The notes below the pieces were generated by a model. That model made no database searches and was not told the origin of the DNA. It saw only the letters and a list, made by a program, of their open reading frames with translations. Of a DNA stretch of 42,551 bases, positions 21,697 to 23,494 are shown piece by piece. The stretch lies in the NCBI GenBank assembly GCA_021809545.1, contig JAKAYL010000013.1, positions 1-42,551 on the forward strand. The letters are read 5' to 3'. The position numbers were made by a program, and so were the translations under genes. The stretch is from Thermoplasmata archaeon. Its GTDB lineage: Archaea > Thermoplasmatota > Thermoplasmata > Lutacidiplasmatales > UBA184. The stretch's first letter is position 1. Each line of letters opens with the position of its first letter.

Positions 21697-21867
21697 TCAC
21701 TCGTGCTCCGTGTAGGTGAGGAGGTAGAGGGCGCCGGCGCTGAGGGCGGTCAAGGCTCCCACCATGGTTAGCGGATTGGAACTGAAGAACGCGATGTCTG
21801 CGCCGATGACGCCTAGGGGAATGATGGTCCCCACTATGGCAGCAACGATCTTTCCCTGAGTGCTCAC
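21697..21867 (-). CDS. 56-aa two-helix membrane protein
   Basis: This gene is below the ORF-track size limit. It starts at GTG 21867 and encodes 56 residues with two predicted membrane helices (IVAAIVGTIIPLGVIGADIAF and MVGALTALSAGALYLLTY) and a short charged tail ending EHE. A TATA box, TTCTTTTAAG, lies 25-34 nt upstream of the GTG, the spacing of the leaderless genes in this window. No family is recognised. Confidence 0.7.
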   Translation of the reverse strand: MSTQGKIVAAIVGTIIPLGVIGADIAFFSSNPLTMVGALTALSAGALYLLTYTEHE

Positions 21868-21890
21868 GGACCTTTCCTCAACTGCCGCCG

Positions 21891-22008: not shown

Positions 22009-22959
22009 TCAATCCTTCTCCGTAGGAGGGACGGGTCCGCCGGGTCCGGGCAGAGGCTTGGGCTTCGCCGCGAGAGCCCCGTCCTCCTCGGATTCGATCA
22101 AGATCTCCACGTCCCCGGGAGTGGTGTAGCCGGCCGGCATGCCGAGGGGCTTCTGGGAGAGCCGGGCGGTGGCCGCCTCGGCCAGGGAGGGCTGTTCTGT
22201 CGAAAGGAAGGAGGGAGAGACCCCGCCCGCCGCCTTGGGGATCCCCACCGAAGAGCCGAGGACCTGGCCCTCGCGGAGCCAGCTGACCATGGTCTCGACC
22301 CCGCTGATGGAGACGTACTTGCGGATGTGCTCCGCCACGTCGGCCGCGTAGCCGTGGACGAGGGAGGCGAAGCTCTGGTTGGGGTTCTGGCGGAGGGTCT
22401 CCTCGTTGTCCAGCACGAAGACGTGGGCGCGGCCCGCCTCGATGAGTTCGGTCAACCCTTCCTGGAAGTAGAGGTTGGCCATCGTCTGGTCGGCGATGCG
22501 CCGGCGCCGCTCCTCCGCGTGGAAGGGACGAATGAGGTAGAGTGTGAGATGAGCGAGGTCGTCGGGGTTGCGCGTCGCAGCGTCCAGCAGGATGGGAAGG
22601 ACACCGGAGCCCGACCCCCCTCCGAGACTGGCCACGATCGTGACGCACGAGGCACCCTCGAAAAGGCCCTCGAGCTTCTCCCGGGCAGCCAGCGCACGGA
22701 GCGTACCGTCGTGCACCGTGGTGTCCCCGTCATCGTCTTCCGCTCCCGGAAGACCCTTGACGAACACCTGCCGGTCGAACAGTTTCTCCTCCAAGACACG
22801 CCGGTCGCAGTTCACGGCCGCCGTCTCCAGGTATTGGATCTTTTTCTGGGCGACCTCTCGGCCGACCCTGATCCCACCGCCGCCTACAGATACGAGCAGG
22901 AACCTCACGTCCCTACCCAATGCCAGTCTCCGCCGCTCTCCCTCGTTCTTGGCCCCCAT
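22009..22959 (-). CDS. Divergent FtsZ/tubulin-family protein lacking the T7 catalytic motif
   Basis: This 316-residue protein has the nucleotide-binding half of FtsZ. The T1 loop is GGGG (26-29) after FLLVSV, AVNCD (48-52) matches the T3 region, and the T4 tubulin signature is GGGSGSG (113-119). IRPFHAEERRRR (143-154) matches the conserved KPFxxE..RR segment and FVLDNEETL (181-189) the T6 region. Where FtsZ has the T7 loop NxDxxD that completes GTP hydrolysis in the neighbouring subunit, this protein reads YVSISGVETMV (215-225) without the two acidic residues. The C-terminal domain is reduced and ends in a Pro-rich tail. It probably binds nucleotide but may not hydrolyse it like FtsZ. It starts 5 nt after the RHH gene, in one operon. 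Confidence 0.82.
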   Translation of the reverse strand: MGAKNEGERRRLALGRDVRFLLVSVGGGGIRVGREVAQKKIQYLETAAVNCDRRVLEEKLFDRQVFVKGLPGAEDDDGDTTVHDGTLRALAAREKLEGLFEGASCVTIVASLGGGSGSGVLPILLDAATRNPDDLAHLTLYLIRPFHAEERRRRIADQTMANLYFQEGLTELIEAGRAHVFVLDNEETLRQNPNQSFASLVHGYAADVAEHIRKYVSISGVETMVSWLREGQVLGSSVGIPKAAGGVSPSFLSTEQPSLAEAATARLSQKPLGMPAGYTTPGDVEILIESEEDGALAAKPKPLPGPGGPVPPTEKD

Positions 22960-22964
22960 GTTGA

Positions 22965-23462
22965 TTACCTCCCTCTTGCCGGATGCCTTCCTGCGTCCCT
23001 GGAAGACTTGTCGTCGAAGGAGCGCTCAAGGGAGTTCCCGGTGGGCACAGACCCTGTGAGCACCGGGGCGTTCCTCAATCGATCCTCGGCCTCCTTGACC
23101 CGTTGGTCGACACCGAGCTGGGCTAGCCCGTAGCGGACGCACATGGCGATCGCGTCCTCCAGGCTGCCCCCGTGCACCCGCTGAGCAAAGCGCGTGAGGA
23201 GCTCTACCTCCTCGGGTGCAAGTCGTGCCATCGGTCCCTCCACGGGTCGAGGCTGGCCAGACATCTCCCGTAGTCGTGCCTCAAGGAATTGCTCGATCGC
23301 GGATCGGACAAGGGCAGAGCGGTTGCGGAAGTCGCCCGCAAGAACGTAGGAGTCCATGGCTTTGAGCTCCTGCGGTGAGCACCGAACCGCCAGCTTTTCT
23401 TCCCCGACCCTCTCTCGCATATTCCTTTTGTCAGACAATACCACTTGGATTTTGTCGGACAC
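22965..23462 (-). CDS. Ribbon-helix-helix protein with C-terminal helical domain
   Basis: This 165-residue protein contains an RHH-type segment at about residues 18-65: EEKLAVRCSPQELKAMDSYV, then FRNRSALVRSAIEQFLEARL. A helical region follows (EEVELLTRFAQRVHGGSLEDAIAMCVRYG) and a basic, Ser-rich tail. RHH proteins usually bind DNA as dimers and often autoregulate. The GTG start at 23462 is set by a perfect TATA box 25 nt upstream. It is directly followed by the FtsZ-like gene with 5 nt between, so a joint role in DNA positioning, division or regulation is an inference worth testing. Confidence 0.8.
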   Translation of the reverse strand: MSDKIQVVLSDKRNMRERVGEEKLAVRCSPQELKAMDSYVLAGDFRNRSALVRSAIEQFLEARLREMSGQPRPVEGPMARLAPEEVELLTRFAQRVHGGSLEDAIAMCVRYGLAQLGVDQRVKEAEDRLRNAPVLTGSVPTGNSLERSFDDKSSRDAGRHPARGR

Positions 23463-23486
23463 CCGAGCAGTAAAAAGATTTTAGAT

Positions 23487-23494
23487 TATATAAA
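23487..23494 (-). promoter_or_regulatory. TATA box of the RHH/FtsZ-like operon
   Basis: TTTATATA on the minus strand matches the archaeal consensus exactly. It lies 25-32 nt upstream of the GTG at 23462, so the mRNA is leaderless. Confidence 0.8.

Follow-up and report, generated by a model that had tools for sequence, protein, structure and literature searches.

A tandem ribbon-helix-helix gene paired with a truncated FtsZ homologue in archaea of the class Thermoplasmata

The two adjacent genes described here encode a ribbon-helix-helix (RHH) protein and a half-FtsZ, that is, a tubulin-family protein that has largely kept the GTPase domain of FtsZ and has lost both the T7 loop and the C-terminal domain. 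They lie in a 42,551-nucleotide stretch of DNA from a Thermoplasmata archaeon, the whole of which is referred to as the window, and their features are listed in Table 1. The locus is a variant of the archaeal pairing of an RHH gene with a tubulin gene, and is a member neither of FtsZ nor of cdrS-ftsZ2. We are confident of this account of the anatomy and ancestry of the pair. That the half-FtsZ functions as a regulatory partner of the RHH protein is possible, and we hold it with somewhat less than even confidence. The evidence for structure and ancestry is far stronger than that for either of the functions considered below, regulatory partnership or the capping of FtsZ.

Table 1. Features of the RHH and half-FtsZ locus, in window positions
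Feature	Position	Strand	Basis or remark
Half-FtsZ CDS, 316 aa, ATG 22959	22009..22959	-	Pfam Tubulin 43 bits; NCBIfam FtsZ 36.7 bits
GTPase (Rossmann) domain and helix H7, residues 13-216, the sole high-confidence fold	22312..22923	-	AF2, Foldseek
T4 nucleotide loop LGGGSGSGVLP, residues 112-122	22594..22626	-	Sequence alignment
H7/H8 junction YVSISGVETMV, residues 215-225, at the T7 deletion	22285..22317	-	Alignment; AF2 helices
Disordered tail replacing the FtsZ C-terminal domain	22012..22263	-	pLDDT ~43-65; no PF12327 match here
C-terminal peptide DVEILIESE, conserved in the family (consensus xVELTFEV)	22087..22113	-	Invariant columns
Tandem RHH CDS, 151 aa, from ATG 23420	22965..23420	-	GTG 23462 start less likely
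First RHH unit, ~residues 9-46	23283..23396	-	RHH_1 E 0.004, below cut-off; profile comparison probability 98.8
Second RHH-like unit, ~residues 64-103	23112..23231	-	Class-profile unit comparison E 1.8e-7; predicted helices
TATA box TTTATATAAT	23484..23493	-	Across families, this part of the promoter is enriched in TATA-type 6-mers
Palindrome 1, operator-like (minus-strand sequence TGTCCGACA)	23453..23461	.	At the expected transcription start
Palindrome 2, operator-like (minus-strand sequence TGTCTGACA)	23429..23437	.	24 bp beyond palindrome 1

An earlier note on this DNA had read the downstream gene as FtsZ-like but without the NxDxxD motif, and our searches agree. The protein scores above the cut-off of the Pfam Tubulin model (PF00091, 43 bits against 33) and below those of the NCBIfam FtsZ model (TIGR00065, 36.7 against 295.2) and of Tubulin_2 (PF13809, 11.3 against 27), and NxDxxD is absent from both its sequence and its alignment. 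The tubulin signature GGGTG(S/T)G is present as GGGSGSG. In an AF2 model built from an alignment of 47 sequences, the pLDDT is mostly above 90 across residues ~13-216, with one inner block at 77; helices span residues 197-216 and 218-231, with disorder beyond. The top Foldseek matches listed for this model are all FtsZ structures, aligned over about 200 of 305 FtsZ residues, and the aligned region is the FtsZ N-terminal domain. The earlier note had also counted T1, T3, T4 and T6 as kept. In our alignment T1, T2, T4, T5 and T6 are indeed largely kept, while T3 is lost in the genus of the window, where EDDDGDTTVHDG stands against GLGAGARPEIG in FtsZ. Because of this change nucleotide binding might be weakened in that genus. 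In some members of family f1, T4 has GGE in place of GGG. Beyond the GTPase domain, a C-terminal peptide reads xVELTFEV in most of family f1 and DVEILIESE in the window; E285 and E289 are invariant among 17 sequences, and E289 among 47. A small hydrophobic protein may be encoded directly downstream of the half-FtsZ (window 21700-21869, minus strand).

The loss of the T7 loop is best seen in an alignment of 43 half proteins with 30 full-length FtsZs of the class. The T7 loop (GLVNLDYAD) falls under an 8-column gap in 43 of 43 half proteins, the exception within the gap columns being L138, which has unrelated residues there and still no T7 motif. T7 being deleted, H7 runs straight into an H8-like helix. 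The earlier note had placed YVSISGVETMV in the T7 position; we rejected this peptide as a mutated T7, as the alignment with full-length FtsZ indicates a deletion, not a substitution, and the peptide is the junction of H7 with the H8-like helix. After the deletion the half proteins continue for 24-92 residues, compared with about 132 in full FtsZ. The C-terminal domain, previously described as shortened, is in fact absent: PF12327 has no match at the window locus and two elsewhere in the genome, and both the AF2 disorder and the extent of the Foldseek alignment agree with this. In an unrooted tree of the GTPase domain all 30 full FtsZs fall on one side of one branch (support 95/92), so that a single loss of T7 and the C-terminal domain is enough.

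The RHH gene lies upstream on the same strand with a gap of 5 nt, and the pairing given in the earlier note is correct. Its start is most likely ATG 23420 and not GTG 23462, because the GTG frame meets a stop ahead of the ATG in two relatives from the same genus (L034 and L035). The identification of the partner as an RHH protein holds too, but to judge from comparison of its units it is a tandem (double) RHH protein. When the two units in the alignment of RHH proteins of the class are compared, they match each other with an hhalign E of 1.8e-7. The first unit of the window's family matches the class second unit with an E of 3.6e-8, and its second unit does so moderately (E 7e-5, probability 63), while the full alignments of window and class RHH are homologous across both units (hhalign E 2e-16). 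The structure model of the RHH protein has a low pTM of 0.33. Its sole NCBIfam match is the CdrS model NF058555, and even this is below cut-off (17 bits against 100).

The TATA box that had been noted ahead of the RHH gene is present, and between it and the RHH ATG lie two 9-bp palindromes (TGTCNGACA), 24 bp apart. The strict pair is found at one place only in the 1.96-Mb genome; looser sites may exist. GACA half-sites recur at the RHH promoter across families of the class. In 32 promoters, drawn from at least eight families, the most enriched words include GACAAA and 6-mers of the TATA type. TNNGACA, a motif picked after inspection in promoter sequences that are related and hence not independent, occurs 78 times in the 32, compared with a mean of 10.5 and a maximum of 19 in 200 shuffles. 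From these candidate operator sites we may fairly infer that the operon is autoregulated. A wider regulon based on single TTGTYNGACAA sites was considered and dropped: a genome search turned up six sites that share no theme, and none of the six was seen at ftsZ. One of them, a TTGTTTGACAA site (G000:C27:151725-151735, L092), is directly upstream of a frame that by eye is citrate synthase-like. A AAGGGATGGGA-like word recurs between RHH and half-FtsZ in the intergenic regions of L133-L148 and L180-L183, and is also found upstream of RHH in several families; AGGGATGGG is present between the two genes in 13 of 25 loci.

We searched 250 genomes of the class for the pair. The half-FtsZ was found in about 39 genomes of family f1 (E <1e-90), and short FtsZ frames in many other families. 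The relatives that bear names are Thermoplasmata metagenome genomes, one of which is Candidatus Lutacidiplasma silvani. Conservation of the RHH gene in this neighbourhood, a check proposed in the earlier note, is extensive: RHH is directly upstream at all 27 long half-FtsZ loci in f1, a tandem RHH is directly upstream at all 26 short loci examined outside it, and RHH is also upstream in loci of f2, f11, f15, f16, f18 and f20 (assigned by profile score). Wherever the upstream sequence is long enough, in about 14 families, the half-FtsZ thus has an RHH neighbour. The pair is near-universal in the class, and a genome has between one and a few copies of RHH. Many genomes also carry RHH with a full-length FtsZ; this FtsZ belongs to one clade and lies directly behind RHH. 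Among the conserved neighbour clusters listed, only those of RHH and half-FtsZ include the window locus; a methionine-aminopeptidase-like gene is upstream in the window and in three loci of the same genus. At L033, in the f1 genome G010, the RHH frame overlaps the open frame of a 419-aa FtsZ with NVDLSH at T7, and no half-FtsZ was detected in that genome. In a literature search of limited coverage on truncated archaeal FtsZ, the half-FtsZ family was nowhere described, and FtsZ is unmentioned in a paper on the order Lutacidiplasmatales.

The source genome (G000; 1.96 Mb, 98.98% complete) has two further Tubulin matches on contig C69, so that a canonical FtsZ elsewhere in the genome, which the earlier note suggested looking for, exists twice. 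Both are full-length, with an intact T7 (NLDYAD and NLDFND) and with the PF12327 domain that the window gene lacks. One of them adjoins frames that by eye resemble SecE, NusG and L11. A SepF match is also present in this genome. The idea that the half-FtsZ is the only FtsZ of its host is therefore false for the source genome. It is partly true in f8, a family in which the main remaining relative of FtsZ is the short protein.

In 13 f8 genomes (95-99% complete, several of them single-contig) there was no PF12327 match, compared with a match in 13 of 14 control genomes. These 13 genomes have kept RHH, and the half-FtsZ was found in all of those examined; the f8 half-FtsZ keeps GGGTGTG. A PF00091 search of ten f8 genomes returned the short protein in ten and a divergent second tubulin relative in seven. 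Because of this divergent protein, an FtsZ-type partner is conceivable in most of the f8 genomes searched. Divergent tubulin relatives with a C-terminal part and without NxDxxD were seen at L149, L150 and L155 in f8 and at L151-L153 in other families, and at the three f8 loci an RHH frame is directly upstream too. SepF was absent from five of six f8 genomes searched, and the sixth had a weak match below cut-off; mcrA was present in six of six tested. In family f19, including genomes without any FtsZ match, RHH stays and the next gene encodes a protein of 160-255 aa without GTPase motifs, an apparent case of stepwise decay of the RHH partner. At L205-L214 of this family the tandem RHH is followed by a gene of this kind, which at L208 (by profile) and L212 (by eye) is still FtsZ-like. 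The f19 genome G066 has two full FtsZs, yet its half protein has lost the motifs. Some Thermoplasmata genomes have only FtsZ, with neither SepF nor PRC, according to a review (PMC10936438). Taken with the mcrA results, this review suggests that f8 is Methanomethylophilaceae-like and f19 Thermoplasmatales-like. In these few lineages the retention of nucleotide motifs is independent of full FtsZ, which argues against FtsZ capping as a general function.

We tentatively propose, with a confidence not far short of even, that the two genes form an autoregulated operon in which the half-FtsZ is a GTP-binding, non-polymerising regulatory partner, and not a filament or a partition motor. Its probable ancestor is an archaeal pair of RHH and FtsZ resembling cdrS-ftsZ2, which was duplicated or converted; the FtsZ copy would then have lost T7 together with the C-terminal domain. 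The RHH protein would bind the GACA palindromes over its own transcription start and repress the operon. With T1, T2, T4, T5 and T6 largely kept, the half-FtsZ may still bind guanine nucleotide. Since it has no T7 and no lower domain, it would neither form a protofilament of its own nor trigger hydrolysis in a neighbour. Being unable to polymerise, it could instead, with GTP bound, serve the RHH regulator as a partner or a sensor, and might report the GTP level or the state of FtsZ through its free nucleotide face and the conserved C-terminal peptide. The recurrence of the pair even without ordinary FtsZ suggests that it probably regulates and does not build a division ring. Linkage alone need not mean that the two proteins bind each other, because haloarchaeal CdrS acts by transcription. 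More doubtful is the wider view that this is a class-wide signalling module, in which FtsZ was reduced to a protein that binds GTP and regulates a tandem-RHH transcription factor, and that the module has outlived FtsZ in methanogens without the FtsZ C-terminal domain. The earlier note had suggested a tubulin homologue that binds nucleotide, is possibly non-dynamic and goes with a DNA-binding protein, and a non-dynamic homologue of this kind fits all of the evidence.

The main rival of the regulatory-partner reading is that the half-FtsZ is a chain terminator, whose nucleotide face caps or poisons the exposed T7/C-terminal-domain end of an FtsZ protofilament at a dose set by RHH autoregulation. 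The source genome also has two canonical FtsZs and a SepF match, and these, the mostly kept pocket loops and the precedent of ARC3 (PMC5855766) would all accord with this. We nevertheless consider it unlikely, as f8 retains its GGGTGTG without any FtsZ_C, the half protein of G066 has lost its motifs in the presence of two full FtsZs, and the genus of the window has lost T3, which belongs to the polymer face. It is very improbable that, in an RHH-FtsZ operon, RHH alone matters while the half-FtsZ decays as a passenger. The strong decay of the RHH neighbour in f19, and GGE in T4 of some f1 members, are what such a passenger would show, but the gene is kept in about 39 f1 genomes and in no fewer than 14 families; its pocket residues are invariant, and its C-terminal peptide is conserved in f1. 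A dead gene would not keep pocket residues and peptide across the class.

Partition of DNA by a TubZ/TubR-like system, with RHH on a centromere and a tubulin filament that moves DNA, is highly improbable even though a DNA-binding protein gene adjoins a tubulin homologue: the half-FtsZ has neither the T7 nor the C-terminal domain that a filament needs, the two palindromes are found together at a single place in the genome, the operon's promoter, and near-complete genomes throughout the class contain the gene pair, as would be expected of a chromosomal gene. RHH antitoxins and autoregulation are usual in toxin-antitoxin pairs, but an RHH antitoxin with a division-poisoning half-FtsZ toxin is hardly to be expected of a pair that is near-universal in the class, where a genome has one RHH copy or a few, and that keeps the same gene order where no FtsZ_C domain exists to poison. 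Of the roles that the earlier note had put forward, partition and positioning are thus unsupported, because the candidate sites are at the operon's own promoter and the parts for a TubZ-like filament are missing; division control is the most plausible, with cdrS-ftsZ2 as precedent (PMC7439475, PMC8406309).

If the regulatory-partner reading is true, a tubulin-family protein has kept its nucleotide pocket, dropped the parts needed for a filament and become tied to a transcription regulator throughout a class. Nature would here have separated GTP binding from polymerisation within the tubulin superfamily, and in small proteins. The 13 near-complete f8 genomes without an FtsZ C-terminal domain bear on how archaea without FtsZ divide. 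To count f8 genomes as FtsZ-bearing, as surveys may do, would be misleading; if the module reading is true, the 'FtsZ' credited to such methanogen genomes is no division ring protein.

Several known systems share parts of this organization. With FtsZ (TIGR00065, PF00091 and PF12327) the half-FtsZ has in common the GTPase domain, T1, T2, T4, T5, T6 and H7, and it differs in having no T7 and no PF12327 and in scoring far below the FtsZ cut-off. The FtsZ of Nitrosopumilus maritimus is also reported to have an altered GTP-binding motif, and in the available part of that paper no RHH pairing is described, unlike in the window (PMC3684127). TubZ of type III partition is a polymerising GTPase with T7 and a C-terminal domain, of which the half-FtsZ has neither, and such a system would be expected to have centromere-like iterated sites away from the operon promoter, whereas here the strict palindrome pair is at one promoter only. 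The FtsZ-like families FtsZl1 and FtsZl2 have coiled-coil/helical or ~300-residue C-terminal regions, and FtsZl2 keeps T7 (PMC2875224). Both share with the half-FtsZ a tubulin-superfamily GTPase domain on divergent proteins, and FtsZl1 also the lack of a recognisable FtsZ C-terminal domain. Their long C-terminal regions and the T7 of FtsZl2 set them apart, and the match here to PF13809, which we take to be FtsZl1, is below cut-off. ARC3 of plant chloroplasts is an FtsZ-related division inhibitor that binds FtsZ and blocks its assembly (PMC5855766). On the chain-terminator reading it would resemble the half-FtsZ, to judge by description, as an FtsZ-derived regulator that is not a ring builder, and it differs in its MORN domain. 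We know of no RHH partner of ARC3.

The closest comparison is with cdrS-ftsZ2 of haloarchaea and other archaea, in which an RHH transcription factor and a tubulin homologue are encoded in one operon, and haloarchaeal CdrS acts on ftsZ2 and other genes via transcription (PMC7439475, PMC8406309). Shared features are the order of the genes, with RHH directly ahead of tubulin on the same strand, the single operon and a likely role in division control. FtsZ2 is an FtsZ division protein, whereas the half-FtsZ is without T7 and the C-terminal domain; CdrS is a small RHH protein, whereas the window RHH appears doubled and scores below the CdrS cut-off. Many genomes of the class hold a separate pair of RHH and full FtsZ beside the pair of RHH and half-FtsZ, and it is these full-length pairs that resemble haloarchaeal cdrS-ftsZ2.
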